The notes beneath the pieces are model-generated. The model saw only the letters and a list, made by a program, of their open reading frames with translations. It was not told the origin of the DNA and made no database searches. This document shows, one piece after another, positions 6,298 through 63,982 of a stretch of DNA of 64,000 nt; position 1 is the first letter of the stretch; every line of letters begins with the position of its first letter. The stretch covers positions 1-64,000 of the forward strand of contig JALJEE010003072.1 of assembly GCA_023231475.1 (NCBI GenBank). The letters run 5' to 3'. The translations under genes were made by a program, and so were the position numbers. Source of the stretch: Seison nebaliae (taxonomy: Eukaryota; Rotifera; Pararotatoria; Seisonacea; Seisonidae).

Positions 6298-9200
6298 TTA
6301 TTTATTATCTAAATTATAAAGAAGTGGTTCGACACAGAATCCTCCATCACAAGGATCATAATGTCTTGGTAAGGAATGAGCTGATGTTGATGATAATCCT
6401 CGTTGTCCACATCGGGACACGTCACGAGATTGATGACCTTTTCTGGCTCGATTATTCAATAAATTATTTTTCATCCCAAATTGATTATTAATAATATTCG
6501 TATTCTGATTATTCATCATATTATTTGTGTAGTATATTTGATTGACCATAAACGAATCCATATTATTCGGATTATTATTGTTGTTATTCTTATCAGTATG
6601 CTCAATTGTTATACGATCGTCTGAGATATTATTGTGCATATTTCCATGATTCATAGTATTGTTAGTTACACTGCTCTTATTCATGTTGTGATAACAGTTC
6701 AAATAATTAGAATGACTCAAATTTGTGTTGTTGTTCTTTGTGTTATGTCCACAAGCCAATTTCTGGAATTCTCCATTGTATAATGGTAAATTAGGTGGTG
6801 CTGGTAATGGTGGTGCCGTTCCACCAGTCATTGTCATCGGTTTTCTATCGTACTCATTGAAATAATCGAATGACGTTTGTTGAGTTGTATCGTTGTTGAA
6901 CGGATTTACTGCTGATTGGAAAGATGTCGGTAACAATATTGATGATGGTTCCGTTCCATCAAATCTCAAAGTTGCTGCAGAAGTTTTTGCACGAGTTGCT
7001 GCTCGAATCACATCTATAAAAGAAGATGATTAAGTGTATGTGTATGTAAAATATAAATATGAAGAATAACCATCAGCTGATGGTGGTGGCATACCAGTTC
7101 TTTGTACCAATAACTTTAACGTATCATGACAACCTCTTATTAATTGTGTCGCTTGTTCATGTGTAAGTGATGACGTGTCATATCCGTTAATATTCATAAT
7201 TATATCACCTACTTGCAATTTGTTGAAAGCAGCACCAGTAATACTTGTGACGAGAACGAAAATATTTGAATTGAAATCGCTTCCTCCTCGAATGGAGAAA
7301 CCGAACCCTTTCTTACCTCGTCGTAGAATGATGGAGTAAAGATTCCTATCCAATTGAATCACCGATCCGTCATTCTCCAAATCTCCATAACTGTCGTCAG
7401 TCGAAGTGAAATGTTCATGCTAAATTATAGTTGAATGGGAATTTAAAAAAAAAAAATCAAATTTTCCAACCTCTTCATCAATTTCATATTGATCATTGCG
7501 ACTGGAGAGAACAAGAGAAAGAAACGGATTAGAAAATTTTAAATTTAGTTTTAAAAAGATTTTCAAATAAATTAACTTTTTCTGATGTTGTGATGATAAT
7601 GAATCACTCTCCAATTCATTTTGAGCACAATGTGAATTAGGTATGGTGGAGGAAGATAATGTTAGAACGACATATGTCGAATGAAGACACAATAATTCGT
7701 TAAGTTGATCATGTGACAATTGGACGACTAATTTCCCGTGAACTGCAATTAATTCGTCATTTGGATAAATTCTTCTTGCTTTATCCGCTATACTTCCATC
7801 AATAATTTTACCTAAAAGAAATTATATGACAATTCGAATGAATAAAAAATTAACGAATGAAATGTCGATATCCATTTGGACATTCGATGGTTTTTATTTG
7901 AAATCCATAAGTCTGTCGTGCTTTCTTATGCAACGTCACTTGAATTGACGACACTATCTTACTATTAGCCATATTAATATTATTGTTGGTGTTACTGTTG
8001 TTGTTGTTGTTCACTAAATGACAATGATTATTATTCGTATTATCGTTACAGATTGATGTTGTACGATGATAATCACGGAAATTATCTTAAATAACAGAAA
8101 AAATTTTAAATAGTTTTTTTTTAAATTTAAATGTTAATTAATTTAAATTTAAACTATTTCTCTGATTGTTCTCACCATTCTTCATGGAGGATGGTAAGAT
8201 ATTTCTTTTCAAATGGAGAACGATGTTTCGATGAGCAATTGATCTTTTGAGAAGGTTAAATGTTTCGGTTGATGACAATTGTATCATGCTTTGTCCATTC
8301 ATTCCGATAATTTCATCACCGGATCGTAAACGACCATCTCGAGATGCGGCGCTATCACTTAATACTTCTTCGATTTTCATGGTACGAGTATGTTGATGTG
8401 AATGATTTGGTTGAATCTAAAAAGAAATTTTTTCGAAAGACAAATTTTAATTAGTGGAAAACAGATAAATTTTCTTCTCTAACCGTAAATCCGAAACCAT
8501 TACGATCCTGTGGAAGTATTTTCAATTGGACCGTCAAATATTGAAATTTATTTTCATCATAGCTGTTGTTATTGTTTTTGTGATGGCTGTTGTTGTTGTT
8601 GTTATTATTATTCATATTTTCATCTTTCTTCACATGTTCAACTGATGAGCATTCTTTCCGATGATGTTCTCGGAGATTCGGTTTCTTTCGATTCTCATCC
8701 GTTTTCCATTTCTGACATTCATATGATGCATCATATGAATAATTATTTGGTCGATCTGATCGTTTGTGAGGTTGTGCTGTGATATTTGTCATTCGATTAT
8801 TCACCGGTCGATAATATGTCATAGAATTTTTGAGGAAATGGAGATGTTTGTCTTGTTGGAAGGATGATTGAGGTGGAGGTGGAGGAGCGGTAGCAGCAGT
8901 AGGAATATGATGAGAAAGATGAGAACGGTAATATGGACAACATACTTCATTCTCATTCATTCCATTCCTTGAGAGTAGTTGGTCATGTGCACATCGATTA
9001 ACTGTGGGACATACGTCTATCATCTCATTCGTTAAATGATGTGACAAGTCACAATTACTTCGAATTCTAAAATGATGACCATTATCATTCAAATGGTCAT
9101 TATTATTATTATTGTTATTGTTGTTCTTATTATTATTAGTGCAATGAACATGATTACAATTACACAACTTATTTAATTGCGGCTGCTTGTTGGATGAGTA

Positions 9201-12200
9201 GTGTCTATGACAATTATGATGTTGCTCATCCATCGTATCCATCTGACACAAATCATTCATACACCAACAACTCGATTCATCAAATTCATCAATATCATTC
9301 TCCAAATGATTATCATTCTTATTCTGATGATCATTCTTCATCTCTTTTTCGTGCGCCTCGTTGTTGTTATTCGTTTTCTTCTTTTGGCAATTATGTGTCG
9401 ATCGGGTTCTATGATTCCCCACTTGTAACTGATCCACATGATGATAATTATCTTTATGACGATTATTCTTGCAATAATGATGATAAACTTCATGGTTCTC
9501 TTTCACATTCTTATTCATCTTATTCTGATGCATCGTCTTATTGACAATATTGGGATTGGTCGTAATACGTTGATTGGATGGAGAGATTGGAATTTTCTGC
9601 TCCTTTCCCGAATAACTACAATCGTTTACTGAATTTGAACGGAAACATTCATCTCCATTTCGGAATGGCAATTTATCTTCCTTCTTCTCTACCACATCAT
9701 CCTCACTCTTCTTATTGGATTGACATTGCTTCTTTTTGAGATCAGTCGCTAAATCGAAACAATTCATTCGTGCACAATCCGTCGTTTTCGTCATGGTGGA
9801 AGTGGAACTAGTTAAAGATGACGTCACCGTAATTGTGGTAGTGGGAGTGGTCGAATGATGGGATATGGTTGTTCCTCTCGATGGTATGACCATGGACTTC
9901 GTCTGTAACTTGTTACCATTCGCGAATAAATTACATTTCGAATTATTATTTTGTCGATGATGATGGTGATGATGGTGATGATGATGATTATCATTGATTG
10001 AACATAACGTTGTTGTTTTCGTTGTTGCGGTTGTCATAGATGGTGATGATTTGATCGTTGTTCCATAAAATTCTTTTCTGTTATTCTCATTCCTCGATTT
10101 CTCCAATAATATTGTCGCTGTCGTTGTCGTTGGTGTAGATGAAATCATCGAACTCGTCGTTGTACAATGAACGATATGACAATCTCGGGTGTTGGGGAAG
10201 TGTTCGCTATTATTAAATTTCGCACTTTCGCTCTTTCGTATATTCTCAAAAGGTATAAGTCGATCAATTGCCGTTGACGCAATGGAGAATATGGCAGAAC
10301 GACGATTTTGTGCATTGTTCTTAAGAATTTCATTATAATTCTTACGACTTTTATTACGAGATGAAGGACGACGATTTATATCGTCTCTTATTGTCATATT
10401 GCATAGTAGTTGATTAACATTCAAAGAATATTCACCACAATCCGAATAAACCCTTCTTAATCGTACCGGCTCCCGGTACTCGTCTCCATCTCCAACAAAT
10501 TCATTATTCTTTTCACCTTCTAATAAAGATTTTTAAATAAATAATAAAGCAATTCAAATTAGTTTTTATCAAGTCTTCCGTCTTCACCTTCACATTAACA
10601 ACATCAACAATGACAACCGTAAAATCCTTCTTCTTCAACCTCCTTCCTCCTCCCCCTTCTCCTCCTACCTCGTTCTCCTTCTCATTTCATTCATTTGAAC
10701 AAACAAATAATTTAACAACTTTTTCCTTCCTAATCTTCAATTGAAAATTCTTGAAATATAATTCATTTTATTAAATCAACTTCATTGATTGGATCTCGAG
10801 GAATCACCACCTCTTCCCGCCATCTCACAAATATAAGACAAACAAGCATAATAGACAACATTCCATTCATTGACGAGCATACTTTCTCGTTATTCACACA
10901 GCAAAGTCGATAGAAGAACGAATGAAAATATTCAATTTCATAATTACATTATTCGCTAAGAATTGTTAGGTTGAGAAGATGGGTGAATTGTTTATATAAA
11001 AACTTTTAAGGATTTCTCATTTCTTACAGATTCTCCAGATATCTCCTTCTCAACTCATATTTATATACCATCTTCTTTCATACCAAGTGACGATCAGTCA
11101 TATAACATTATCAACATCTTTCTCCTTCAACAATTCTTCCTCACACCTAAACACATACGTAATAGTTTTCATCCGAACCAACTCTAGACAAATTAATTAA
11201 AATCAACACATCATTATCACTAATGAGAATATACTCCAACTATTTCTTCATCTGAAGAAAAATGATTTCTGAAGTAAAAATTATTAACATGAATGATTGA
11301 CGAACTACTGGACTGGTGGTGGAGTACTACCCTAAAAAAAGATGAGACATAACGAAATTTTCATAAATATTCAATGATCCGTTCTTATCATTCAATTTTT
11401 ATCAAAAACAAATTCTTATCTCTAACAATTATTCTATTATGTTACTCGTAAAATTATGTTATACTCACATTTCATCTACAATCTCTAATTTAACACCCGA
11501 AGAAATTTTGAATTTGGGGAAAAGTTGCAAATGAAAAAAACTACTCATTTCATCACTACTACTCGATAGATATAACAGTTCGAATTCCCCATTATCTATC
11601 ATTCAGAATAACGTTATCGACATTCTGGTACTATTGGGAATAAGTTTTTCGGAAAATTTAACTTAAAACTGTTTTCGCTTCTGAAATGGTTGAATGGAAC
11701 ATGGATGAATCTCTTATTAATAATCAGTATGTATTTATAGTTACTGATGTTACAGAGAGTTGGAAAAGTTTCAAATTATTTTCAATTTCACAATTAAATA
11801 TTATTGGATGATCTCTAGGAAAATGTTATTCTAATTGATATGATGACTGGAATTAAATGATTTAGTCTAAATGATTTGTTAAAAGAGATGAAGAGGAAAT
11901 TGTGTTTATATTTTGGAGGAAAATTTTTAATTCACTTTCGAAGTGTAGATAGGAAGATAACAATGATATGAAAGATAATTTACTTAACATGATGGTGAAA
12001 TGGGAAGCGTAATTATGGATACGGATTGGGAAGGTAATGGAATCATTCGATTTTGAGTTTAAGATGGAGAAAGGAAGTGAAGTTCAATAATTTTAAGAAA
12101 ATATTATTTGTTTGGGGAAGAGAAATGAAATATTATTCAATTTCTTACTCCACTTATGGACATTGTTGTTTAAGGACATAGAATTATAGATTATTTTGAT

Positions 12201-12633
12201 AATCATGCTTATTTTCATAATGCGATCTATTGATACTATTGTTGGCACTAAACGATACATGGTCAACTATGCGGAAGGGTAATGGAATGTATGGGAAGGA
12301 TTAACGAATTTGTTGAAACGATCATCTCAATTCATCTCATCTCATCGAATGGGAATTGAAAGGAAAAATAAATTGACTTTATCTACCAATTCCAATTACA
12401 AACTAAAAAGTTTCTTTTCCTTTTCCAAAAAGAATTTCTCAATAGAATATCTGATCCAATTCGATTGTTTGAGGCAATTCCGTGTTGATTCCAAAAGAAA
12501 GGAATGCTGAAATGTTCCATTCTATTCGTTTGGGTTTTTCTTCTTCTTTTTCCTCTACGATTCGTGGCATTCTTCTTCTTTCAATTTTATTATTATTGAT
12601 TTACTGAAAAATATGATTAGTTCTATTGTTACT

Positions 12634-12669
<36 letters not shown>

Positions 12670-15600
12670 TTACTACTACTACTAATATGACTATTAATAC
12701 TATGAACACAACAACTCTTTTGAGAATCGTAATAGTCGCCATATTTTATCGTCATTGTTTATCGTTATATCTCAAATATGGACAACTCGATTGAGATTCA
12801 TCAAAAATTAATCTCTTTGTATTTTATTGTTAATCTCTGACGACTGCTTACATCATCATCAGCATTATAATCTGTCTTTCTAATTGTTTTTCTTTCTTTC
12901 TACTCAAAACTCTTCTTAATAACACGATGGAATGTTGATGAAATATTGGGAAAGGAAAATGCGGAAAGATAGAGATTTTCATTTCGTGGAACAAATTTCG
13001 AATCATCTCACAAATAAAAGAAAATCATTAAATATTTATAAGTAAAGGTTAGAGTGCACACATGCGTCTAGATGGAGGGGCAATGTAGGGAAAGACACAT
13101 ATCGACTGCAAATAAGAATATTTCGTTCGAAATTTTCCCAAATTATTTCCTTTTTCTATTAGAAGAAGAATATTAGCATTAAGAACGATAATTTTGATAC
13201 GAATCATCATGACAATGATGATGCCGATGACGACGACGACGACGATGATGATTGAACAACATTGATGGGAGAATGTATTAAATTGTGTCGATGAGAAGTG
13301 GATTCGCAGTCGATTAATCTTACGTCTACTTCACTACTCATCATCGAATACTTAATTTTGTATGGTAATTTCAACTTTATTATAAATACCATTCTTTTAC
13401 CCATATCCCTCCTCCATACAACCACACCGACTGGACTCGATATAATGAGACATCGTTATTTTATTGTGCAATTTAAAGTTAAGAGAATGTAATTGTTGTA
13501 AATGAGAATGAAATGAGTATAAACGATCCAATTCCGTCCCATTCAAACTTTACTTTCCTCCATCAAACAGAAACAAAATAAAATTATATAATAACTAGAT
13601 ATTGATCAGAAGACAACTAATATGACTAGCAACGTTGATTGTTGTTAGAATAATAAGAATTCAATAAATTTTTGATAAGTAAATGTTCACATTCCATATT
13701 ATTATTATTATTATTATTATTTCACTTCCCAATGACTACAACTAATATATAGATGTTAAATAGACGAACATAGTTACATATCATGAGATACCTACTCATG
13801 ATATATGATTGCATAATAATATTTTTGTTGTTGTCGTCGTTGTTGGTAATGAGAATGGGGATGATAATGCATATATTCACCTTTTTTTTATAGTTCTAAT
13901 TCTTCTGATCAGTATGCATTTCTGGAATATGTGTAATGAAATATGACAAGAACGTCTGTTTACTATAAACAATCGATTCCTGTTGGAGAGTGGAGATAGA
14001 TAGATAGATAGATAGATACTTATATTTCAATAATTTCACAAAAAGAATTCCACTGAAGAAATGAAAAGTAAGAAAAATTTATAATAAATTTTTGAAAATT
14101 GTTTATTTTTCTATCACCTATTCCGCTAATATCTGTTCTTTATTGCATATTTTTTGAAAATAACATTTTGGAGAAAATTTTGATTAATTTAATTATTCTT
14201 ATAGTCATCAACAATATCGTCGTCATCGTCATCATCGTCATCATTAATTAAAGGAATAATCAATATCTTTCATGCAAATAATATCTATTTGTTCCTGACG
14301 ATCATTGGTCTCTAAGCAAGGCGACTCTTAAAAAAGGGTCTTGAAGGAGAGGGGAATAGTTCAGTATTGGAATCTCATACTCTCCCTCATGAATAAATAA
14401 ATAAGACGTAGGAAATAATTCGACGATAATTGGAAGATGAATAGAAAATAAATTTATTATCTTATTAACTTATTGACATCAACAATTTGCTTAGCACATT
14501 TCGTTCATGTCTAATAAGAATTTTTAATTGGAAATTGGAACGTAAGAAAAATAGAAAAGTGTTTGTATAATTCATTCCATTTCCGTCAGAAAATGGATTA
14601 TACTCCACCAATATCCTTAAACTGTGCATCAAAGCGTAGAGAGCATGAATAATTATTTTGAATTAAAATTTTAAGAATGAATTTCATTTTGTTTTCTTTT
14701 GGAAATTCCCATTTCGAACATATCCAAAATAATTTTGGAATGTTCAACGAAGTTCGGAGAAGATGAACGGACAAAATGTAAGAGGAATTAGGAAATGGAA
14801 GTGTCGGTTGGAAGGAGAACGAAAGAGGAAAACTATATTAATTTCATTCGATCATGTTGAAGAAAACATAAAAGAATCATATTTCAATGATGACTTCCGT
14901 TTTTGTTTATTCGCATTCGAATCAATCTGACCAGTTAAATGTTGAAAAGTGGAAAAGTTGAGATTAATGAAAAAGAAAAATAGAGATGTCTCATATTCCC
15001 GTCGGATTATTTGATGGTGCTCGTTAATTTTATGGTAGAAGAGGAACGATTTGATTCGGAAAGAATCATTTCTTCCCAAACGAGAAATAATTTATTTTGA
15101 GGAATACTTTTCTCCTTTCCATTGACATAAAGATAAAATGATTTGTTTCAAGTTTTTTTTTCTTCTTCTTCTTTTTCTTTTACTTTGTAAACGATTTAAG
15201 GTTATTACATGAGAATTAAAAGGAATTTTCGATTCTTATATTATTTGTCATTTGAAGTTCAAATGATATGTTAAAATGATGTATAATGATTAAGATGTAT
15301 TTAAGAAGAATTATCTATTATTATCAAATTGTTGTCGTTGTTGTTGGTGTTGTTGGATGAATGAGAAGACGAAATAGATGAAAAAGAAAAATGGAAAATG
15401 GAAAAAAGAAATTGTACTGACTTGTATCGTTGTGATGATCAATATTGACTTTCATCATCAATGACGGGAGAGATTGATAGTGATAAATTTCGTTTGTTTT
15501 ACTTTTATCATTCCGATTATCATCATCCGTTTCGAGGATGAATGGTAACATTCTCAGATTGCCCCCATTCAATGAATCGTTCGGTAGACGAACGTTATCT

Positions 15601-26527: not shown

Positions 26528-26599
26528 GGTTCTATGGTGTAGCGGTGAGCACTCTGGACTTTGAATCCAGCGACCCGAGTTCGAATCTCGGTAGGACCT
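26528..26599 (+). tRNA. tRNA-Gln (anticodon TTG)
   Basis: Full cloverleaf. The acceptor GGTTCTA pairs with TAGGACC. The D arm carries GTGTAGCGGTGAGCAC. The anticodon stem CTGGA/TCCAG encloses loop CTTTGAA, with anticodon TTG at 26561-26563. The T arm CCGAG-TTCGAAT-CTCGG pairs perfectly. There is no intron and the CCA is not encoded. A T-run ~10 bases downstream fits Pol III termination. Confidence 0.97.
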
Positions 26600-30556: not shown

Positions 30557-30982
30557 ATGGGCAAAAATTATGTGCTGATGATTCTAGTAGCATTATTCTC
30601 CATTTTCCAACTACTTCACGCTTTCCCCAACAAAGACGAAGCTGTTCTCAATTCCAATAAACGAGTTGAAGTACCAACAAATGATGAGATGTTATCGGCA
30701 TTAAATCGATTCTACGACAATGAAGTCGATTCACATTTATTGGAAGTGTTGAAGCAATTATGGGAAGAGGATGAGCCACATATGTGGAAACGTGCATTTG
30801 CAGCTTTGCGTGGTAAACGTGAAAGAAATGATGAATATCCATCAAATTTCAAACGAGCATTTCAAATGATGAGAGGACGACGAAATCCATCAAGTTTCAC
30901 ATTTCCTTCTAACAACAAACTTTTTCATTTAATTTCAATAGTCGAAGAGAATAAACGAGCATTTGCTGCATTGCGTGGTTGA
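30557..30982 (+). CDS. Neuropeptide precursor with amidated AFxxxR peptides
   Basis: The ATG at 30557 is chosen over the in-frame TTG at 30551 because it starts a clean signal peptide (residues 1-~23, VLMILVALFSIFQLLHA). Three cassettes follow dibasic sites: KR-AFAALRG-KR, KR-AFQMMRG-RR and KR-AFAALRG-stop. The terminal Gly of each is the usual amide donor, so the predicted peptides are AFAALR-amide (twice) and AFQMMR-amide. Bases 30894-30941 look like a 48-nt intron (donor GTTTCA, a CTAAC branch-like word, acceptor TTTCAATAG). Removing it keeps the frame and gives a shorter third spacer. I do not recognise the family in my knowledge of nematode nlp genes. A poly(A) signal lies 39 bases after the stop. 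Confidence 0.8.
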   Translation: MGKNYVLMILVALFSIFQLLHAFPNKDEAVLNSNKRVEVPTNDEMLSALNRFYDNEVDSHLLEVLKQLWEEDEPHMWKRAFAALRGKRERNDEYPSNFKRAFQMMRGRRNPSSFTFPSNNKLFHLISIVEENKRAFAALRG

Positions 30983-31184: not shown

Positions 31185-32871
31185 TCAATTCAACGAGGAG
31201 AATGATGAGAAATAACAGGCTAATTCCGTCGTATCGTTTGCTGCGTGACGACTTAGCATCGAATTCTTATCATACATTGATTGTACACGAATGGAAGTCA
31301 TCGATGTGTTCATTTCATCATCACTCGTCAACTTTTTCTTCGTGCGAACTTTCGACGTTGCCGGTCGTTGTTTCCGATGTTTCTTTGGTAGTTTTATATC
31401 ACAATCTTGTTCGATCAAATTCGAATAATATTTCAATGTGGATGGGGCAGTCTGTGCGAAACGTTGTGTCAATGGCAACACTGAACAACTATTGGTTATC
31501 TTCTTATATTTCGGTTTGTCTACATTTTTCGCTTGTAATTCGATCGAAGGAAATTCATTATAAGCAACAATTCGACCATCTTTCCCATTCTGGTGTTTTA
31601 TTCTTTCGATTTCTCTCAATTTCTCTCGATTACCCTTCATCGTTTTCAATTGCTCCTCAATCAAATGTTCATATTTCACTTCTCTTAATAATTTATCAAG
31701 CTCATCCGGCTCTTCTTTTCTTTCCACTTTCTCTTCATTAAATTTCGATAAATATTTCAAGTTGCATAAAACGTCACTTTGAAAGCAACCGGTTAGATCG
31801 AGAACTTTCTTATAATTCGCTTGCAACAACTTAGAAACGTAAGGATTGTACAAAGAATTACCAAAGAATCTAACTCGATACTCTTCAATAATCTCGTCAT
31901 TCTTCTTCTTATAAATCTCCATTTCCTCTTCTAAATGTTTTATGCTAAAAATAATTTTCAGTAATTTTTAAGCACCTAAACTATTCTAAGCTTAACTGTT
32001 CTTTAAATTCCTTTTCATTTGTGTGCCATTGCTTCGTAAGAATCTCCTTCTCCTCATTCCACTTCCATCGTTCTTTCACCAACTCCTTCTTCAACTTCTC
32101 CTCTGATCTTTTATTCCAACGCGCCTATAAAACAAATCGATCTGGATTATGAGGAGAACACACGGAAAATTTTCATTTTCTTTAACAATTTCATTCTGCC
32201 TTCGTTCCTCATATTGCTCATGAATTTTTTTCAAACATTTTGAATGAATCTCATACTCCAACTCTTTCGTCAATTCTTCAATTCTCTAAAAAAAAATCGA
32301 TTTTTCATTTTCCATAAAATAAATAAATAAGGAAAAACTTTATGGAATTTCTCTTCATTCGCTACCTCTTTCTCTCTCAACACTTTCTCCAACTCATCTT
32401 TATATTTCTTTTCATATTCCGATTGAAGCTGACCAATTTTCTTGTAGTTTCGATCAGTGACATTCTTCATTTCCGTCTTATGATTCTGAATGAAGGAGAA
32501 TTGATATTTGAACACATAAAGGAATATGTTTTAGTGTTGATAACTTCTTTCAATCGATTTATTTCTTTATCGAATTTCTGAAGATCGTCTGCTCGAATTT
32601 GTTGATATTTCTCTTCTTTTTCAAGTAGTCCATTCTCCAATTCTTTCTCATAATACTTTAACAATTTTTGTTTTTCTTCTAATAACTTCTCTTCAAATGC
32701 TTTCTGATTACGTTTATTGAGAAACACTATTTCCTTTTCACCAATCTCTTTTTTTTTCCAATAAAAATAAAACAAATGAAATTACTTTTTTATTTTTTTT
32801 TGTTTCTAACCAATTATTGTTCGATGTGTCAATTCTAATGGAGCATTATGACGAAATTTTAATTTATCCAT
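31185..32871 (-). CDS. Coiled-coil protein of unknown function (6 exons, 456 aa)
   Basis: Exons: 32871-32811, 32747-32545, 32485-32366, 32285-32187, 32124-31997, 31944-31185. They sum to 1371 nt and the phases agree. Residues ~20-300 are an almost unbroken Glu/Lys/Leu heptad-rich coiled coil (for example EKLLEEKQKLLKYYEKELEN). The C-terminal ~150 residues are basic (KLPKKHRKQRPATSKVRTKK) and end in a serine-rich tail. There are no membrane segments, zinc motifs or enzyme motifs. Such architecture is common in centriolar, ciliary and cytoskeletal proteins, but I cannot assign one. The first acceptor (AAAAAAAAAG at 32748) is poor, so exon 1 is the least certain part. Confidence 0.7.
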
Positions 32872-36507: not shown

Positions 36508-39500
36508 TTAGAATAAAGCACAAAGTTTCTTCATTTCAATACGACGCCATGACGGCAATTTGACGAAATCACTTTTGTGCATCTCAAATAATCTGAAGAA
36601 ATCTTCATTTCTCAAATACATCTGGAAAGAGAGAGAGAGAGAATAAAAGAAAGAGAAATATTGCGAGGAAAATCGAACTTCTAATTGTTGTCGATTAATA
36701 TTTCTTTTTCGTAATTCTTTAATGTCACTTTTGAGTTGAAGGATTTGAGGATAAGAATAATTCTTAGAGGAAGAAGATTAGATGAAAAAATTTATAGAAA
36801 ATAAAATTAAACTCCATTGATGCATAGTTGGGGAGTAGATTTAGCGGCTGGTGTGCCCAAAACGGATGTGCAATTCATATCGATAACTTCGCCATCCTCA
36901 TCCTGATAAAGTTCTTCATTCTCTTGAAGAATTTCTGTCAACTATTTTGGGAAAATTGAGGAATAAAAATGAAATTGAAACGAACTTTATCATCGTTCTC
37001 CCGATAAGCTGGTGGGAGCGATCGACAGTCACGAGTCGATTGTGGTTTCGACGAATACATTGCGCGATGACGTTGATCTAGTATGTAGATATATGAAATG
37101 TGAATAAAAAGTGAAATATGAAATGAAAGGAACAAGCATAATCAGTATATGGAAGTTGATGGAATCGATATCCGACTGGTGATAGAACACCGTTGGGTTG
37201 AACACGATAAGAAGAATTGCGAACATTCTTTGAAATGATGGGACGAACAATTCGTTCATAACGACTGGGTGATGTCTTATAATGATATGGATAATTGAGT
37301 GGAATACTTGAGGCATCATGAGTAGCATCATTGGTTCGAGATGATAAGATTGGATCATTACCATCACCAAATTTATTCACATTCTCTTCATATTCCTCAT
37401 TGTCATTGAGATTAATTTCAAAATTATTTTGGGTATTCACTGAAAGTTGTTGATTGACATCATCTAAATTATTCATATCCGTTTCCACTGATTGACGAAA
37501 ACGTTGAGTTTGCCGTTCAGCTTCCAATCGTTCGTGAACGAAATTCTTCTCTTCTTTCAATGATCGAATAAAAACACGAGCAAATGGATTCTTCTCTACA
37601 CATTTCTCTAACATCTTTATTCGTTCAATCTTCTTCTTCTCAATAATTTCCAATTGTTTTATATTCTCTTTCGTTTCTTCATCAATCTCATCATCAGAAA
37701 TAATGGCACCATCATGATATGGTTGTATCATACATTGATGTCCATTATCTGCTGTCAATCGTCGAGTATGTGATGAATATTTCGATTCTTCCTCTTTCTT
37801 CCATTCGATACTCTTCTTTTTGTTGACGTCATCATTCTCCGTTAAATAATAATCACAACTGAGAATTGGCGTGTAAGGAGGAGCGGGCCAATCGGTTGTT
37901 TCTATTGTGGGTACTTGATTAGGGAGTGGTGGAGCTCCCTCAGCGAAACGTGATAGATGAACAGGATCATCATATTTCTTTCGCTGTTGAATTCCTGTTT
38001 CTCGAAGTGAAAGATTTCCATAATTTCTCGAATTTGTCGAATGTGGAGGAAGGAAACAGTTGGGACGTTTATGAACACATTCGCTCAATGTTCGAGAAGA
38101 ACGAGTGACTAGAGCATTGGTTGCATTAGCTGTTGGTGTGATTGGCGATTGGGAATAATGTTCTAACATTCGTCTCTTCACTGTATTCTCCAATTCTAGA
38201 AATGATTAAATAAATTTTCATATGGAAAATGAGGAAGAAAAGAAGAATATTAACGTTTCTTTCTCAAATCGTCAGTGATGGTTCTATAGAAATTTTTTGC
38301 TTCTATGAAAAGAGACATGAAACAAGTTGAAATGAAAGAGAATGATGTTTACGTCTGGAGAAAGATATCGATCCTTCAATAATAATAATAATAATAATAA
38401 TGTGAGAAAAGAAGAAAGAATCTTTAAAAAAAAAAAACAGTTCCAATTATCAATTAACGAGAAGAATGAAGATATTCGACACTTCAATCAGATGAGAGAA
38501 TGAAAAAGAAGAAAAAAACAGGAAAGATATCGATAAAGACAGATGTCATCGATTGAGACATCTCTATAATCGGAAATGGATTATAAGAGATATCGTAGGA
38601 AGAGAAGAAGAAGAAGAAGAAGAAACGATTCGGCGAAAATAAGAAATAGAAATATCTTAATTCTATTTTATGCATCAATACTTTTCAATAAACAATTTCT
38701 TCTTTTTCTTTCAATTTCTTTCAATTTCCACAATTTCTTTCCTCCCACTCTCCACATAGCTCAATAATGACAACAACAACAACAGACAACAAGTTGAGTC
38801 GAAATAAAATTAACAGAGTTGAAATGAGTGGAGAATGGAGTGGAGAAAATATGAAGGAAGAATTTAAAAGAGAAAAATAATTAAAATTGAATGATGAAGA
38901 GAATGATCAATATATCGAGCCACAATTAGATTCGATTGATTGCACGAGAAGATGACAATTCTTTCATCTGTTTAATTATTTCATATCCATCACATGAACT
39001 AGATGACAACGACGAAACGACAGAATGAATGATGGGAGAGGAGAATGTAAACATTTACCAATCATTTGCCCGCTATTATTACATGATCGATCGAAAGATG
39101 TGAAAGTTTCGGTCGACGAAATTGAAAGACGAAATTTGTGATGAAAGAAAAGAAGAGTTCACTACACAATATTTCTTCTGGCTCGACTCGTATTCTTTCC
39201 TACCTCCCTCTCTCCCTCTCTGCCACTTCGACGATAATGATGAAAGGAAGAAGAAGAAGAAGAAGAAGAAGAAGTTCGTTGATCAATTCTCACGTAAGTG
39301 AATTGACCGTAATCCTTTAACTAAAAAAACTAAAACAATAATAATAATGAGACTAAAGTAAACCACATCGGATAAGAATATGATGTTTTATGGTGAATGA
39401 ATGAATGAATGAAGAAAACAAATAAAAACGAATTCATCTCATACAATTTCATATTCTACTACCTCTCTCCCTCCCAGCTCGCTCCTCATTCATTCTCTCC

Positions 39501-50053: not shown

Positions 50054-50798
50054 ATGTCTCTATCACCGAAAGATGAATTTGATTCAGATGACATTGGATT
50101 GGAGAATGGACAAGGTAGTAACGCTTATGAATTTGAATTAAACACCAATGAAGATGGAGGAGTGAATAATATTCCGAGCAATGACGATAATTCGAATAAT
50201 CAATTCGTACATGGGTTTGATGATAAAATGAAACTAACAGATGGACAAAAGCATGCTAGAGAAGAGTATCTTGCAATGAAAGATGATGCTCGTCAAAATC
50301 AACATAATCCAGATGCACCATTGATCGAAGGAGATCATGCAGGTCTCAGTTTAAAGAGTTTTTATCGATTCGTTAAAGGATTCGAGACGGCAGCCGCAGC
50401 AGATGTGAAATTAAGTGCGGTTTATACAAAATTTGTTAATGACAACAAATGGACTGATCAAATCATTAAAGTAGTAAAAATATGAAGAATTATACAGATG
50501 ATGATGATAAATTCATCGAAGATGTTAGGAATATTCATCATCAAAATAATCAAGGGAATCGTCATAAAAAAATGGCAAGTCGCATGGTTCAAGGAGTGAC
50601 TGAATCAGCGAATATTAATAATCCAGATAAAGAAGAAAAAAGGCATTATTGGCTAATAATTCTAACTTGGTCGATCTTTTTATAAAAGAGCAAGATGGAA
50701 AAGATCTTCCGATAGTTCCTGGACAAACATTTACTACATTGAATCATCAGCTAGCAGTTCAAAATGAATTATTATCGTCTAAACCTCCCAAGCAATAA
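50054..50798 (+). pseudogene. Acidic protein ORF broken by frameshifts (virus- or element-like)
   Basis: The first frame runs 50054-50485, is strongly acidic at its N-terminus (KDEFDSDDIGLENG) and ends KVVKI. The sense frame then shifts to 50482-50685 and again to ~50650-50798, each continuing protein-like sequence (KKMASRMVQGVTES; DLPIVPGQTFTTLNHQLAVQ). The overlaps suggest one ancestral protein of ~250 residues disabled by two indels. An acidic, disordered N-terminus resembles viral phosphoproteins, but I cannot assign a family. It shares strand and spacing with the next two frames. Confidence 0.45.
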
Positions 50799-50809
50799 CT
50801 GACAAAGCA

Positions 50810-51938
50810 ATGTCTATTCACTCTACTGTCAAAGATCCGAGACAATGTTCTTCGTCATCTTGGATGCCAGGCGAGAAGAGAGAGAGAAGAAACACTCAAT
50901 TTATTCAAGAACCAGCTGATTTTTCTGTGGACTCATTTAAAAATTTGGCATCCGGACGTCCTCCATCTACATCAAATACTGTGTCCCATAGCTATTTCAA
51001 TCGAATGTGCTCGAGAGGTATCAATATTCCTCCTAATTCGGTGAACGAAACATACAAACCGTTGTCAACATCCATCGGCCAAATGCAATGGCGATTTACC
51101 ACGTTAAATTTTCCTCCCAATGTAAGAGGACATAGAGAATGGGGCAAGTATGTCAAATATGCCGAACAATTTGATGCTAGTGTAAATGCTAGATTTCCTG
51201 AAGGTCTGGAGAAAACAGAAACTCGATTGTCTTATATTCCAAATATGGACATTTTCGATCTATGTACTCAAAAGAAATCCATGCCGGATAGATACTGGTC
51301 AAGATACTGAATATAAACAAGATACTAATACATAGATACTGATGTTAAAAAATGATGATCAAGCTGTAGCTCTCATAAAAAGTATAGTATTCAAGATACA
51401 AGTTGAATTCCAAATGTCAGATGAATTATTTGAGACATTTAATCCAATATTCAGAATGGCATGGGAGACAAACATGACGACTACTCCATTATTATTAACA
51501 TCCACGTGCAAATCTTTATTGGCAAATCAAGAAAGAGATAATTTTCATTTATCTTTATTCGGGATGCCAGTAACAATATTATATACATTACCATTTAATG
51601 TAGTGGTTCCAATTGTCATCAATTTGTACAGCAACAGTTCACGAACGTTGATGTATCAGATGAGTGGAATGTTACGTCAATTATTCGATGCAGGAATGGT
51701 ACATGCTTGTTCTCGATTAGTTCAAACAAATATAATCAGTTCAGAAGATGTAAATGCAGCAATTCCAGACCTTTCTGTACGAAGTTTGTACGAACAAATT
51801 GAGAAAAGTCAACGACCACAGTCAAGTCAATTCAAATTTTTACAACAACAATTGAAACGGATTGCTGCAGAACATAACTCTTATGATAAGTCATTAAACT
51901 ATGAATCACGATTTGAATTACAATTTTCCCAACTCTAA
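50810..51938 (+). pseudogene. Two-part ORF, possibly viral nucleoprotein- or gag-like
   Basis: Frames 50810-51310 and 51342-51938 follow with only 31 bases between them, in different frames. The junction is made of four AGATACT repeats, so the two may be one protein of ~370 residues split by repeat slippage. The second half is helical and hydrophobic, without a signal peptide (for example MPVTILYTLPFNVVVPIVIN). Compact same-strand genes without introns, unlike all neighbours, suggest an endogenous viral element or transposon cargo. Family unknown; no polymerase or envelope is seen. Confidence 0.45.
51290..51341. repeat. Four spaced AGATACT repeats
   Basis: AGATACT recurs at 51290, 51302, 51320 and 51334, at the frame break between two ORFs. 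Confidence 0.85.
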
Positions 51939-52088: not shown

Positions 52089-52815
52089 CATTAATAATGA
52101 AAAAAAAAATATTTTGATGACAAAATTTACTACAATTGTCGTAAAGAAAAATGCAAAGCTTACGTCACCGTATCAGGTGGAAAAATTTGGGCGCCCGTCT
52201 GGACCACAACCACGATTCATGCCCCACTCAAATCGATGAGCTGCGTTCGCTGAATACCATAAAGAATGTGGCCGAAACAACAAAAATATCGACAAAGAAT
52301 GTTGTTCTGAAAAATAAAGACATCGTGATTCAGGGAAATCGTCGTCAAAGCACGACAGAAAGAAATATAAGGCGATATCGCTAGAATATTCGAGCGAAAG
52401 AATTACATGAATGTCGATCTGATGCCCTAATACATTCTCTCAACTGTTTGTTTTTGGGATAAAGCGTAATAATCGTCTCATCACACCATTTTACATCCTA
52501 ATGAAAGGTCGAACGAAGAATAGTTATATAGAATTATTCACGAAAATTAAGCACGAATTTTCGATAAAACCACTCTCAATTACTTCAGATTTTGAAACTA
52601 GTTCCATTTTGGCGGCGGAAATGGTATTCCCTGATGCCAGCTTGCACGGATGCCTCTTTCACTTATCGCAATCGATTATGCGGCACGTGGGACAGCTAGG
52701 GATAAAGGAACTATATAAAACGGACAAAGATATTGCGAAGGATGTGAAGAAATTATCCTATCTTTCGTTTATTCCCCCTTTAATGGTAGAAAATACTTTT
52801 AATATGCAGTTATGA
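52089..52815 (+). mobile_element. Decayed MULE transposase with FLYWCH finger
   Basis: Near 52116-52240 a FLYWCH-type zinc finger is visible: IYYNCRKEKCKAYVTVSGGK, then, after a frameshift near 52200, LDHNHDSC. From 52501 the frame matches the MULE transposase domain: MKGRTKNSYIELFTKIKHE, then ITSDFETS (a catalytic Asp region), then FPDASLHGCLFHLSQSI, then YLSFIPP. Several frameshifts and stops separate finger and catalytic parts. The C-terminal end is lost where the GGTGGCGAA array begins, and the start of the catalytic domain is also missing. It is a dead autonomous Mutator-like element copy. Confidence 0.8.
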
Positions 52816-52825
52816 TTTGTATATA

Positions 52826-55154: not shown

Positions 55155-55159
55155 TCTCT

Positions 55160-56463: not shown

Positions 56464-58063
56464 ATGGAATATTTGATTTTATTTCTTATTCAGTTTCCGT
56501 TTGTAATTTATGCAATTTATGTTACTGAGTTGAGCGATTCTGCTCATTCACCGGAATACTTTCGTAATTTGATCGGTTAATAGGAATCAATTCTCCTTGG
56601 AATGAATAAAAGAGAATTGGAGAAATTGAGAATGAATGAGAATGAAATTAATGAGAAGAAGTTGAGATAAAAAAAAAAGAAAGAAAAAAGAGGAGAGTTG
56701 GAAGAGGAATTGAATGAGTGAATAATAGAATAATTCAACATTTCCTTTTAGACAAGGATGGTATTGTTCGAACATATTATGCTTTACCTGGAAGACATCC
56801 ATTGAAGTTAGAGAGGGCGAAAGTGAAATGTAGCGACAAGAATCTTTATCCGTATATCGATCGGATAGGTCGTGTCTTTCGTACACATATAGGTTTACTG
56901 TGATTTTATCAATATCATTAATGTTCGAATTAATAGAGAGTAAATTAGCGACGATTAACAATGATAACGATCTAAAGATATTAAAACATTACGTGAAAAA
57001 TATGCAAGATATTTATCATTGTATCTGGATCGACGATCGACGTACACTGCCCCTGATGGGATTGAATGAGAGGAAGCAGGACATCTATCGACTACAACCT
57101 TTATGTCCATCGTTATGCGTCGAGAATAATGAATATGTGTTCGTCATTTCATCGATAATATCACAAGAACAAATTCTGATTTGATAGGGTCAATTTAGAG
57201 AAATGTTACGGAGGTGATACTTTATATGAACGACTTGTCGTTTGTGAATTAAGTTAGAAATCGTTCTTCATTATTCAATCTTTGTCATTCGATGGACATC
57301 ATTATGTGAGTGTCGTCCTTCGATCATTGAGACATATGTTCAAATTGGAAAGAATAATTTCTTTTATTCAGATCAAAATATTACAGCGATGTTATTATCA
57401 CAAACATTGTACGTTTATGACAAGGGGAAAACTCCAACATTAAAAGAAATTTATGCCGAGTATATACCCGATCCATTTCCTAATCCTAATTATGATATGA
57501 ATCTTTATTTCGGTATTTATGATCGATGTTCATTTCCATTCTTTTCTCCATCTCCTTTTCCAATTTCTTCTTCCAGTCAACGACGAACAAAAAGAATTAC
57601 ATGTGAATTTCATAAAACGAACCGGGTTATCTATCGTCGAATGATATTTAGAATCTGACTATTCCTTCCAATTTCACTAGGGAGAATGAATGTGTCAATG
57701 AACAACAAATGATTAGATTAGCTTACACTTGGAGTATTAATGTGGGAATATCTCTCTGTTTCCTCATACTCGTTTTCCATTGTTTATTGGCTGTACAATT
57801 CACGAGAAAGTTCATTTTCCTTCGAGGAACTATCAGTTTGAAAAGGAAATTAAAAAGTTCTTTTCACAATTCCAAATTCTTCACAATCTTTCTCCCCATC
57901 AGCTCTGAAGAAAAACTATCTGACTCTTCTCGAAGAAGCTGAAGATCAAGATCGTGCACAAAATAAACGACATTTGTCTAATTCATTCAAAAGTTCCGGC
58001 ACTCCATACAATACACGGAACACAATATTTAGTTACGCAACAAAACAAACAAATTCCTATTAA
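56464..58063 (+). CDS. Type I membrane glycoprotein-like orphan (8 exons, 341 aa)
   Basis: Exons: 56464-56575, 56752-56892, 56937-57138, 57188-57252, 57372-57512, 57577-57625, 57681-57835, 57903-58063 (1026 nt, phases agree). It begins with a signal peptide (YLILFLIQFPFVIYAIYV). The ectodomain has conserved-looking motifs DKDGIVRTYYALPGRHP and KNLYPYIDRIGRVFR and several cysteines (LCPSLC, EKCYGGDTLYERLVVC). One membrane helix follows (INVGISLCFLILVFHCLLAV), then a ~65-residue cytosolic tail with LLEEAEDQD. I recognise no family. The ectodomain motif faintly recalls extracellular sensor domains, but that is only an impression. The donor at 57139 (GTTCGT) was chosen because it alone restores phase. 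Confidence 0.65.
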
Positions 58064-58416
58064 AATCCATTTTTCCAACCATAAATAACTCGACTCAATT
58101 ATCAGAATAATCCAAATAAATTCGCATTCTGAATAAAGATTATTAATGAGAATAATTGTCAAGTTTTCAGGTAATTCCTCAGTTCTCGACGGTCATTTTG
58201 CCAAGGTAAATTGGAGATCATGGTACGTCGTGTGCAATTTGAATAAGCAGCTTCTGAGAATAGGAAAGGAGATGACAAATGATTATCTTGTAGAACTTCA
58301 TCGATCGCTTTTTGGAATTGTCGGTCGCTAAATAATTTTTATATTGAAAAGAAAATTTTTCTTTCTACCTAAATTTTTCAACTGTTTATGAACTAAATAA
58401 CTACTTGGTAAAGAAG
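58064..58416. other. Spacer with ambiguous frames
   Basis: About 350 bp. A plus frame (58146-58331) and an antisense frame beginning DRQFQKAIDEVLQDN both look weakly coding. Neither has partners or a recognised domain, so no gene is called. Confidence 0.35.
58132..58137 (+). terminator. Poly(A) signal of the type I membrane gene
   Basis: AATAAA, 68 bases after the stop at 58063. Confidence 0.5.
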
Positions 58417-61400
58417 ATGTTGCAATGTTTACTTCGAAAGCGATCAATCAAACACATTCTCATTCTCATGGGAAGTTCACTCTGTATTACTTTGATATTC
58501 GGATTCTATGCCACTTCCATATCTTCCAATCACTCTGTCATTGTTAATTTTCCTGATAAAAATTCTAAAAATTCTAATAAATTTTTTAATTCCTAAAATT
58601 TTTATTTTATGGTATATCTATATCTTATGATTATGATGTGTTAAAACAGAGAACAAATACTAAAACTCATCAAAAAGACGAATTGATAAAATCTGAAGAT
58701 GTTCAAAAGAGAAATGAAAAGAAAGAAAAGACGAACATTATTCACGTTTCTCAAGTGTGCGAGAGTATTTCCTTTAAAGACATTAATGGTGGTGTCTGGA
58801 AACAGGGATGGCCAATATTCGTAGAGAAAGAGAATAAGAAAAGATTAAATGTTTTCATTGTTCCACATTCTCATAATGATCCCGGTTCGTTTTATAATTA
58901 ATCATATTTCATCAATTTTTCCTGATTCAGGATGGATAAAAACGTACGAAAATTATTTTGAAACACAAACGAAACATATTCTTGATTCTCTTCTTCACAG
59001 TTTATATGAGGAGCCGAATAAACGGTTTATTTGGGCAGAAATTAGTTATCTTTACTTATGGTGGAATCAAGTTCGTTTTTTTTTCTTTCGATTATTTAAA
59101 TATTTCAATAATAATTCTCCTTAAAAATCATTGATTAGGCATCAAATGAAGATAGGAAACGTATGAAATATATTATTGAAGAGAAGAAGCGAATGCAAAT
59201 TGTGACTGGTGGATGGGTGATGCCAGATGAAGCGAACAGTGACATTTATTCATTGATCAATCAATTAATTGATGGACATCAATGGCTGAATGAGAATATG
59301 CCAAGTTTAAAAATTTATTTAATTTATAAGAAAATAATTATTGGTGATCGATTGATTGATTAGATGTTGTGGTGAATAATGGATGGTCTATTGATCCGTT
59401 TGGATATGGACCAACTAATGCTTATTTGTTGTCTAAATCTCAAATCAAATCAGGTAGTATTATTCAGCGAGTGCATTATATTCTCAAAAAATATTTCGCT
59501 TCAAAACAACAATTAAGATTTTTTTGGAAACAACTTTTTGGTTTCTATTTATTATTATCCGTTGATTTGTTTGCAATATCGATTTATTAGATGATAATGG
59601 AAAATTGACAAAGAATTTAATCGAAACGATGCCATTCTATTCTTATGATGTTCCACATACTTGTGGGCCAGATCCGGCGGTTTGTTGTCAATTCGATTTT
59701 GCGAGAATTCGAGGCTTGCGAGGTCATTGTCCATGGGGGAAAGCTCCAATTCAGATCAATCCGAGAAATATCGCAGAACGGTTTTAATATAATTTATTCC
59801 ATATTAAATTTATCGAAGTTTATTTAGAGCAACAACTCTAGTAGATCAATATCGAAAGAAAGCGTCATTGTATTCGATTGATGGAATGGATGAAGATATC
59901 GTTCTCATTCCGTTAGGTGATGATTTCCGATATCAATCAATTGAAGAATGTAAATATCAATTTCAAAATTATGATAAATTAATTGATTACATTAATGAAA
60001 AAGAACATTTCAATGTAGCCGTTAGTCTTTCTTTTTCGATGTCTCTCACTTTCAATTCTCAGATTCAATATGGAACATTGGAAGAATATTTCAAACAGTT
60101 CGCTGCATTAATCGGTTCAGATATCGATTCCAATTTATCAATTTTAGATGGCGACTTTTTCACATATGCTGATCGTGAAGATCATTATTGGAGTGGCTAC
60201 TTTACCACTCGACCATTTTATAAACGACAAGATCGTCGATTAGGCGCCTCATTACGAATGAGTGACCAATTGTCCGAATGGGCCAGTGACGAAATGTCCG
60301 CGAATGAAAAGATAACTAATTATGATCTTCTCATATCAGCTCATCGTACACTCTCACTCTTCCAACATCATGACGGTATTACTGGTACTAGTGTTCATAA
60401 TGTCGTCCTTGATTATGGTAGCAAGTTCTCTTATTTTTCCTATCAACAACAACAACAACTAAATTTTTCTGCAGATTGAAATTAGCTTTAAGAAATGCGA
60501 ATAAAATCAAAAAAGAATCGATCGAAAATATATTACGAAATAAACAAAAGGAAACAGTTTCAATTGTACTCGACGAAACGGAAACAGAAACCCCATATGA
60601 TCCTCCTCAACGTAATCGAATGGAACTGAATGAGAGAAACAAGTTTAAATAAATTTTTATACTGTATAATTTAAAGTAAATTTTTGTGTTTTCAGTTGCA
60701 AATTCGTTGGGATTACTAATTCCATTCATTTAAAACGAAAAGAATTGATCACCATTCGTATTTCCACGAAACATCCTAAAGATATTTTTGTTAAACATTC
60801 GGAATCGGATGAAGAAATTCCATCACAAATTGAACTCGATTTGTATGTTCATTGTTGTTCGAACCATTTGAGAATAGACAAGGAACTCTATCGAGTTAAT
60901 TTCCCAAAAAACATTTCATAATTTTCTTTCAATATTTCTTATCATTTAACAGATAACATTTCCAGTAAATGTCAAACCATTTTCGATGAATTCCTATGCG
61001 ATATGTTTAGGATCCAATCCGAAAAATATGAAAATTAGTAAAATTGAATTCCACGATTTCTCAGTTGATGGAATTGATGATATTTCAGCTGATTTCATCA
61101 GTCCGACTGATCGATCGAAACCGTTGGAATTAGGAAACTTTTTATATCGATTATCATTCGATCGACAAACAACTTTATTGAAATCGATTGAGAAGAGTGA
61201 CGACATTGAGAAAATGGAAATATCATTTAAAAAATATCAATCATCTACTCGATCCGATCATCAATCCGGTGCTTATCTTTTCCTCCCACAAAATGAGAAT
61301 GGACAAATAATCGAATTAGATAATCCGAAATTTTTAAAATATTCTAACGGACAATTAGAAGAACGAATAGAAACGTTCGTAGGCAATACCATCAAACATA

Positions 61401-62299
61401 CCGTTCAATTGATATCTGTCGGTCTAATGCAACAATCCGTCACCATCAAAAATGAAATAATGTTATCAAATGAAAATGTAGATGTAGCAATGAGAATAAA
61501 ATCGAATGTGGAGAATTATGAAAGATATTTTTTTACAGATTCAAATCGTCATACGATTATGCGTCGTCGTTTTATGAAGAAATTACCATTACAAGGAAAC
61601 GTTTATCCGATGCCATCATCGATTTTCTTGGAAGATAATGAGAGACGACTCACTGTCACTTCAACTCAACCTCTTGGAACTACTAGTCCAGATGTTGGAG
61701 TAATCGAAATATTTTTGGATCGTCGATCAATTTATGATGATAATCGAGGAATGGGACAAGGTGTGACGGATAACGTTAGAACCGAATCCATATTCAATTT
61801 AGTTTTAGAGAAACGTAACTTATTCCAAGAAAAGAATCATCTCAACTCTGCCAATACTTTATTATCGACACTCATTCAATTATCATCATCAAATCCATTT
61901 TTCTTATTTGAAATGAAAAAATCGATGACTGAAATGAAATCGGATTTATTTCCTTGTTCTATCAACGTCGAAGGTAAAAGACGATTATTTAACAACGATT
62001 ACTTAATTGTATTCCATCACATATTAACTGATGAGAAAGCGTTTAAAGAACCGATTCCTGATGACATTTGCATTCCATCAAATAACCACAAAACGGTTTT
62101 CAATTAATTTAAATATTTTAATTTCACAATTTCTTTCTTCTAATAGATATTCGTTCCAATGAAGAGATATATGAAAAGTAAACATTTCAAATCATATTTC
62201 TTAAGCGATTTGACAGGTCAACGAATCATCGAGAAAGAAATTGTCGACGATTCTTTCTCAATGTTTCCCGGAGAAATTAGTTCGGTAATTTATCGTTGA
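58417..62299 (+). CDS. aman-2: Golgi alpha-mannosidase II (12 exons, 1083 aa)
   Basis: Exons: 58417-58542, 58650-58884, 58931-59070, 59139-59304, 59364-59540, 59591-59780, 59828-60020, 60063-60424, 60475-60642, 60696-60894, 60953-62095, 62147-62299 (3252 nt, all phases agree). This GH38 enzyme trims two mannoses from GlcNAcMan5GlcNAc2 in N-glycan processing. Seen: type II anchor (residues ~14-32), PHSHNDPGW (zinc ligands His117, Asp119), [10 protein letters not shown] (nucleophile Asp233), GDDFR (acid/base region), [20 protein letters not shown] and HHDGITGTS (zinc ligand His512). The length is close to animal orthologues (~1145). All catalytic residues are kept, so it is predicted active. 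Every one of its 11 introns starts GTT and most are 42-107 bp. It is tail to tail with the BTB gene. Confidence 0.95.
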
Positions 62300-62497
62300 A
62301 CATTTTACTAATAACTCATTTTGGTGTACTTTCCTTCTTATTCTTTGTTATTGTTTATCCAATATTTAAATTCACTCATTATTTATCTTTCCATTTCCTC
62401 AATTAAAACTGGTATTAAACAGGAATTATATCAAATAAGAGAAAAAGTGAAATAGAAAAAAAAAGTGGCGAAAAATAAATTGTTAAATAAAAGAAAT
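62300..62497. other. Convergent 3' flank with a lone GTGGCGAA motif
   Basis: 198 bp between two convergent stops. AAAAGTGGCGAAAA at 62462-62475 repeats the motif of the 52.8-53.05 kb array, immediately before AATAAA. Confidence 0.5.
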
Positions 62498-63982
62498 TTA
62501 AAATATCGATTGAATTAATAGGATTAAGATATTTCGAGGAAGTTTTGTGAATTGTTCACGTTCATTCTTCAAACAATATCGAAGACAATCCACATGTCCG
62601 ACGAGATTCACTAGAATTTTATCTAGAGATACTTCGTTGAAATAGGCATATTGTTTCATATCTAAGATCTCGTGAATGATATCGACAACTTTAAATTTGC
62701 CTTTTGGATATGTGAGAAATTCTAAATAAAATAATTGGACGGTGTGAACGGCACATTCTTCGATGAGAAATTCCTTCGCCGTTTTCCAAATATCCAGTAG
62801 GAGATTGATGTTAGTTTCGTTCATGACGGTTTTTGGTCGTGCTTTTCTCGATTGACACGAAAGAGGAATGTTGACCACTGAAGTTGATATATCGTTATTG
62901 ATTTCGAAGGAGAATTGGAATGTGTAGCAGAAATAAATGATGTTGAGAATGACGTCATGTGGATATTGTAAATATATAATGGTCATTTTATCATTTTCTT
63001 CTTTTTTATTTGAATATTTGATGATGGATTGAAAATATCGAGATTGATTCCACAAAATATGAGAATGAGCATATACGGAGAAATCTTCATTTTGCTCATT
63101 TTTCATAATGAATTGGAGATCGGGACGGAAAATATCTTTAGTCATTTCAGCAATCTCAAAATCCATCAAATTCAATTGATTTCGATATTTCTCCCATTCT
63201 TCCTCACTCATCGTTTCATTACCAAATCGTTGGGCATAAATGAATAAGGGTAATCTCTCCATTTGATTGAAAGCTTGAAGGAGGAAAGCATTTCTCGTCC
63301 AAAGCGGCAAATTACTTAACGACTTATTCTCTATCGAGTTGACTGGAAAGAAAGTTGGAGCAAACGTGTTCATCGCAGCTAAATGTATGCCAGCTAATGT
63401 ATACATGTTAATACTCTTATCAATTAGTAATCGGATAGCACAACACTTGAAAGCAACTCGACGAATATTCGGACGATTTATCATTCCCAACTTTGAAAAA
63501 AAAAGAGAAAAAGAATATTAAAAAATCAAATTTTTCAAATTCAAAAATTGAAATTTAACGGAATGTCTATTTTCGTGGGAGGTACTTGGAGGTTGTGTGG
63601 CTGATCTGATTCGTCGACGATAAATTGAAATAAATTGATATTTTTTATCATTTTTTCGATCTTTTGTCGGATCGATGACCGTCAACAAATCTTCGTCGAA
63701 ATCCAATCGAGCATCAATTCCAATCAGTCCGGCCGATCCGAATGTTTCATAAAAATCGAAATGATGGACATAAACATAACTAGGGAACGAGACGTAGAGA
63801 GTTCCGATCTCTCCATTTTTTACGGGAAGTGAAGCACCATTTTCTGATGAGGATGCAGGAAAATCTTTCGGCTTCCCTGTCACAAGTTTCACATCTCGAC
63901 GAATTAATTCGTTTCCTGTACATCCCGTCGCCCAAAAATATTTCAAATCAGATTGATCGATGTTCTTATTCCAACAGAATCC
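62498..63982 (-). CDS. FBXL4-like discoidin plus BTB/POZ protein, partial
   Basis: Exons: 63982-63560 and 63490-62498 (1416 nt, phase 0); the 5' part lies beyond the right edge, as 63982 follows a TTACAG acceptor. The first exon has SENGASLPVKNGEIGTLYVS then VHHFDFYETFGSAGL, resembling the beta-sandwich N-terminal domain of FBXL4. The second exon has a BTB fold: DLQFIMKNEQNEDFSVYAHS, then HILWNQSRYFQSI, then the post-BTB helix EFLIEECAVHTVQLFYLEFL. BTB proteins commonly recruit Cullin-3; that role here is inference. No Kelch repeats or LRRs are present, and the protein ends ~90 residues after the BTB helices. The intron is 69 bp with donor GTTAAA. Confidence 0.65.

Follow-up and report, generated by a model that had tools for sequence, protein, structure and literature searches.

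Three of four U1 snRNA genes found in the rotifer Seison nebaliae carry a base change that probably matches a switch to U at the +3 position of its 5′ splice sites

Introduction

Few RNA stretches are considered as constant across eukaryotes as the 5′ end of U1 small nuclear RNA (snRNA), and base 6 of an ordinary U1 is U, present as pseudouridine in other species. Here we analyse a stretch of 64,000 nucleotides from the seisonid rotifer Seison nebaliae (contig JALJEE010003072.1, positions 1 to 64,000; hereafter the window), together with 22 other stretches of the same assembly, and find that the introns overwhelmingly begin GTT, with T (U in the RNA) at the third intron position (+3) of the 5′ splice site, or donor, and that three of the four U1 genes found have A at position 6. 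Because U1 position 5 faces donor position +4 (PMC10581693), position 6 faces +3.

Several described systems come close, and what is said here of the papers cited holds for the excerpts of them that were available. Donors of Entamoeba histolytica read GUUUGU, with U at +3 as in Seison. A review holds U1 snRNA to be absent from that organism (PMC13292270), which therefore has no U1 to compensate. The diplonemid S. specki, like Seison, keeps beside a canonical U1 a paralogue with a changed 5′ end, proposed to suit divergent donors (PMC12621601); that alternative end is a run of C whose complementarity to donors is similar to that of canonical U1, and the excerpt describes no dominant switch at +3, whereas Seison is an animal in whose sampled donors +3 is nearly fixed, and a single U1 base matches it. 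The tunicate Fritillaria borealis is likewise an animal that departs genome-wide from the standard 5′ splice site, in its case with mostly non-GT/AG introns, but the 5′ end does not differ between its two versions of U1, and its authors propose N6-methyladenosine (m6A) on U1 together with a duplication of U2AF; the same study considers possible reasons for a constraint on divergent U1s (PMC13326754). In yeasts, A-to-U switches at +4 resemble the Seison case in that one donor position has switched lineage-wide, but the U1 sequence ACUUACC is invariant in the 227 Saccharomycotina and 9 outgroups that yielded a U1, and the switch follows METTL16 and SNRNP27K, with little variation at +3 (PMC10581693). 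Laboratory suppressor U1 snRNAs, which carry a base change that re-establishes pairing to an altered donor (PMC11732430), were made for single sites, whereas the Seison change is natural and runs across the sampled genes.

In a search of the open literature, with subscription journals mostly outside it, neither a change at U1 position 6 nor an animal GTT donor switch was described in the excerpts consulted, and no paper on rotifer donor bias was returned. The Seison genome paper mentions RNA sequencing and, in the part available, no splice-site bias; the word snRNA is absent from its main text (PMC8351084).

Donors begin with GTT

The sample comprises 279 kb, the window and 22 other stretches of one assembly (36.0 Mb, 846 contigs), and so covers about 0.28 Mb of 36 Mb in stretches that were partly picked to contain snRNA genes; its donors presumably stand for the whole genome. 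Two deposited Seison proteins, SNEBB_002454 and SNEBB_000136, were placed on this DNA by exact spliced mapping, in which an AG acceptor was required, GT was preferred but optional and the +3 base went unused. The 27 introns obtained from this protein-to-DNA mapping are all GT–AG, and their donors are 26 GTT and 1 GTA. SNEBB_000136, mapped from residue 144 to its end, contributes 16 introns (15 GTT, 1 GTA), and our IFT172 model on another contig is 99% identical to it over its whole length. SNEBB_002454 corresponds to an alpha-mannosidase gene in the window, for which our own model is 96% identical to the deposited protein and matches the Protein Data Bank (PDB) homologue 6rpc_A with an E-value of 6.7e-160. 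The original prediction, which had been made from the window alone and had looked to nematodes for comparison, claimed GTT for all 11 donors of this gene and for most donors elsewhere; the mapping to 58417–62296 returns all 11, and the nematode frame gives way to a rotifer one, given the identity of the genome and the 99% and 96% matches to deposited Seison proteins. The gene and its introns, all from the deposited-protein mapping, are as follows (a slash marks the exon–intron boundary).

58417..62296, + strand: alpha-mannosidase II gene (Seison SNEBB_002454, P0121), 12 coding exons and 11 introns, 11/11 donors GTT, complete protein mapped from first to last residue
58543..58649, + strand: intron ATT/GTTAAT...AG
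58885..58930, + strand: intron CCG/GTTCGT...AG
59071..59138, + strand: intron CAA/GTTCGT...AG
59305..59363, + strand: intron CAA/GTTTAA...AG
59541..59590, + strand: intron TTG/GTTTCT...AG
59781..59827, + strand: intron ACG/GTTTTA...AG
60021..60062, + strand: intron GCC/GTTAGT...AG
60425..60474, + strand: intron CAA/GTTCTC...AG
60643..60695, + strand: intron CAA/GTTTAA...AG
60895..60952, + strand: intron CGA/GTTAAT...AG
62096..62146, + strand: intron ACG/GTTTTC...AG

We extended these 27 donors to a homology-supported set of 55 with 28 junctions that lie within alignments to solved proteins: 9 from IFT80, 3 from clathrin heavy chain (judged from the aligned range alone), 4 of 5 from a Cys-loop receptor, 5 of 10 from SLC13, 1 of 6 from an SLC22-like protein and 6 of 12 from an AKAP14-like protein. 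GTT accounts for 54 of the 55 (98%) and GTA for the other, so that a purine stands at +3 in 1 of 55; the 28 added junctions lean to GTT because they come from a gene model that knows +3, which the 27 deposited-protein junctions do not. Seventeen further junctions from four PDB-supported genes had been excluded by eye as lying beyond the alignments or beside gaps (15 GTT, 2 GTC), and adding them back gives 69 of 72. Overall, 40.1% of GTs are followed by T; for the 415 non-donor GTs within predicted introns the share is 46.5%, and against this last frequency 54 of 55 has P ~3e-17. Composition (the window has a GC content of about 31%) does not explain the bias, which also reaches beyond the window.

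A simple gene finder, trained unsupervised on the 279 kb, extends the picture beyond genes with homologues, counting only models that start in frame (at ATG or a stretch edge), contain no internal stop and hold at least 250 coding bases. With a flat donor and acceptor model in which only GT and AG are fixed, T stands at +3 in 73 of 107 donors. When the other donor positions are learned and +3 is hidden, the count is 147 of 187 (79%), with 24 of 35 in the window and 134 of 159 among introns shorter than 120 nucleotides. The full model, which also learns +3, gives 173 of 197 overall and 33 of 38 in the window, figures that are self-reinforcing. The predominance of GTT that had been read from the window is thus recovered in deposited proteins, in the homology set and with +3 hidden alike.

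After GT itself, +3 is the most conserved donor position in the set of 55. The others are loose, with A at 51% and G at 31% at −1, A at 25% and T at 47% at +4, and T at 60% at +6. Predicted introns have 45–70% T at −4 to −10. With a GT donor, a T-rich tract and an AG acceptor, these introns show the features of the major (U2-type) class, save for the purine at +3.

U1 genes and their 5′ ends

A search with the Rfam model RF00003, in which 41 of 293 candidates were scored and diverged copies could therefore be missed, gave four full-length U1 loci at 112.9, 112.4, 108.0 and 97.4 bits (gathering cut-off 69.5). Three of them start with AUACUAAC in place of AUACUUAC. The canonical end AUACUUACCUG is found in one gene, L002 on contig C208 (AUACUUACCUGG); L001 on the same contig and L003 on C647 have AUACUAACCUGG, and L004 on C762 has AUACUAACUUGG, in which A at position 6 (A6) is joined by a C-to-U change at position 9 (C9U). 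Positions 1–5, 7, 8 and 10–12 are identical across all four copies. A6 is a change of sequence and not of fold, and the RF00003 cut-off is still passed. The altered U1 5′ end that had been proposed as one cause of the donor bias is therefore present, in that the base facing +3 differs in three of the four genes. Searching the 5′-end pattern ATACTNACYTGG gave 10 matches, against 34 in a control read backwards; four are the known U1 genes, one on C629 is the only other match with A at position 6 yet has no U1 match, and the remaining five carry C or G there.

The four copies are just 61–66% identical to each other. Pairs of the model in standard form number 43 of 46 in L001, 42 in L002, 40 in L003 and 37 in L004, and 23 of the 46 have changed on both sides between copies; pairs kept in this way, with two-sided changes, indicate selection on the U1 fold. 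AUUGCAC, the loop II motif that binds U1A, is kept in L001, L003 and L004, and L002 has AGAGCAC there together with a changed loop I. Sm sites typically resemble AUUUNUG, and three of the four copies conform, with AAUUUAUG in L001 and L003 and AAUUUCUG in L002; AAUUUGUU in L004 departs most.

Downstream, ATTAAACT starts 11 nucleotides past the end of the RNA model in all three A6 copies, within a run of 9 bases identical at one offset, where the longest run among 20,000 random triples was 5. The element was chosen by eye in these copies and then sought after other snRNA genes. Exact copies follow the U5 gene and one U2 gene out of three (loci L029 and L038); a second U2 has it with one mismatch, and it is absent after the third, diverged U2 and after the U6 gene; random 40-nucleotide stretches of these loci contain it exactly in 34 of 5,000 cases and with at most one mismatch in 289 of 5,000. 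ATTAAACT looks like a 3′ box and is a candidate for that role in rotifer snRNA genes, and since all three A6 copies share it with a U2 and with the U5 gene, they look like real genes. L002 (C208:6576-6739) and L001 (C208:8280-8439) are oriented towards each other with about 1.5 kb between them; GTT makes up 11 of the 12 donors predicted on their contig (L012), which makes contamination unlikely.

Among the U2 loci, the third (L031, C796:78598-78799) scores 78.7 bits against 139.1 and 135.4 for the other two; it keeps GTAGTA, has no ATTAAACT and is perhaps a pseudogene.

Pairing of U1 with the donor

Among all 27 single substitutions at positions 3–11 of the canonical U1 end, none adds as many mean pairs with the donors as U6A, in any of four scorings. 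Wobble pairs excluded, its gain is +0.96 for the homology set and +0.80 for the hidden-+3 set; the runner-up achieves about half as much or less. C9U ranks third in all four scorings, and this change, present in one A6 copy, suits the frequent A at −1. Mean duplex energies on the 55 donors are −1.9 kcal/mol for the canonical end, −2.6 for A6 and −3.2 for A6 with U9.

An ordinary U1 pairs its base-6 U with A at +3; A6 of Seison would instead form a Watson–Crick pair with U at +3. We consider it very probable that 5′ splice sites have switched genome-wide from GTR (R, purine) to GTU at +3 and that a U-to-A change at U1 base 6 matches the switch, the two bases having moved together to an A–U pair. 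A duplicated U1 with A6 may have let GTT donors splice, after which donors could have drifted to GTT in this AT-rich genome while A6 became the main U1 form, although the order of these steps is conjectural. The canonical-ended L002 may serve rare non-GTT donors or be specialised. The A6 U1s are presumably the main expressed ones, the A6–U(+3) pair presumably forms in vivo, and U1 and donors presumably changed together. The divergence of the copies means that A6 either is old or has arisen more than once. A more speculative extension, which we rate as doubtful, is that the isoforms A6-C9, A6-U9 and U6-C9 serve the donor classes G/GUU, A/GUU and rare GUA as a set that evolved with the intron set of the animal, much as tRNA isoacceptors divide codons.

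Several observations weigh against a matched change of U1 and donors. The pairing ranking partly re-expresses the +3 bias, and its independent part is that U1 genes carrying U6A exist. Donors are weak apart from +3, with G at +5 in just 25% of the 55, so U1 would account for +3 and not for the whole donor. In the hidden-+3 model, 40 of 187 donors lack T at +3, and the real share among these is uncertain. L002 persists with its canonical end at 112.4 bits, on a par with the top-scoring A6 copy, and is itself followed by ATTAAACT with one mismatch; the upstream regions of the four U1 and two U2 genes contain no common element above shuffled controls.

If it holds that the U1 and the donors of an animal have moved together, the way in which a recognition code changes when many genes depend on it becomes testable, and the coexistence of several divergent U1 genes suggests that such a change could pass through a mixed pool of duplicated U1s.

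Other readers of +3 and other explanations

U at +3 might be read mainly by factors other than U1, such as the handover to the tri-snRNP (the triple small nuclear ribonucleoprotein), LUC7 or SR proteins, with A6 having followed or being neutral. The remaining donor positions do pair weakly with U1, a review assigns commitment of the site to U6 and U5 (PMC11732430, in the part available), and only one LUC7 locus was found. The components that could be read directly are ordinary, however: the single U6 copy has the canonical ACAGAGA box, the single U5 copy the canonical loop GCCUUUUAC, and U1C is identical across a 20-residue stretch in the zinc-finger helix to the solved U1C 2vrd_A, which we take to be the human protein. 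With U6A also the most favourable of 27 changes, and common to three copies that differ as much as these do, we regard a reader other than U1 as improbable. A single METTL16-type locus, in which an NPPF motif is present, was also found.

The same readings bear on two further causes that had been put forward for the donor bias. Examining the U1 and U6 genes at the bases facing +3, as had been suggested, gave A at U1 base 6 in three of four genes and an ordinary U6 box, which leaves altered U6 pairing, like an altered U5, unsupported by the one copy found of each; a compensating change in U1C is equally unsupported, given its match to 2vrd_A through the zinc-finger helix.

The A6 loci might instead be pseudogenes, with the canonical-ended L002 alone serving GTT donors despite a mismatch at +3. 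L002 has both the canonical end and a score of 112.4 bits, no promoter element tells the copies apart, and in L004 broken pairs are most numerous (8 of 46) and the Sm site is the most divergent. Against this, the A6 copies keep their fold with two-sided pair changes and retain the AUUGCAC loop that L002 is without, and all three are followed by exact ATTAAACT, as are a U2 and the U5 gene, where L002 shows a mismatch; we therefore hold this explanation to be very unlikely. That AT-rich sequence or the gene models create the GTT excess artificially is scarcely credible, for although the window has about 31% GC, T follows GT in 40% of cases and our own models misplace some junctions (at least one exception in the hidden-+3 model, the GTA called at 59454 within the mannosidase gene, is wrong, as the deposited protein requires the GTT at 59541), GTT reaches 26 of 27 in deposited proteins mapped with +3 unused, 79% with +3 hidden and 98% in the homology set.

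Separately from the question of +3, A outnumbers G at −1 and G is low at +5 despite canonical U5 and U6. No U12 snRNA was matched in Seison, but control genomes gave none either, so that this search is uninformative; a spliced leader of the bdelloid type had no match at three or fewer mismatches.

Other genes in the window

Four further multi-exon genes in the window come from the gene finder, the first three from it alone.

56921..58063, + strand: predicted 6-exon gene; 5/5 donors GTT in the full model, with GTG at 57603 for one of them in the hidden-+3 model
36508..38318, − strand: predicted 6-exon gene; 5/5 predicted donors GTT in both models
31185..32871, − strand: predicted 6-exon coiled-coil-like gene; 5/5 predicted donors GTT in both models
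6298..10397, − strand: predicted 7-exon multi-PDZ gene; 6/6 predicted donors GTT in the full model, of which two become GTG and GTC in the hidden-+3 model

For the multi-PDZ gene a search restricted in protein length retrieved three multiple-PDZ relatives, none of them a deposited Seison record. A model at 50054-51938 has GTT at one of three donors with the full model and lies near an open reading frame (ORF) at 52423-52815 (+ strand) that resembles a fragment of a MULE-type transposase. A long ORF at 2144-4492 (− strand) has a start, MQCSNCGSKKV, that resembles a zinc ribbon, and perhaps encodes a TAF1B/RRN7-like factor. A single-exon ORF at 30557-30982 (+ strand), with a signal-like start and the repeats KRAFAALRG and KRAFQMMRG, looks like a neuropeptide precursor. 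The sole tRNA found in the window is a tRNA-Gln (UUG) at 26528-26599 (+ strand).

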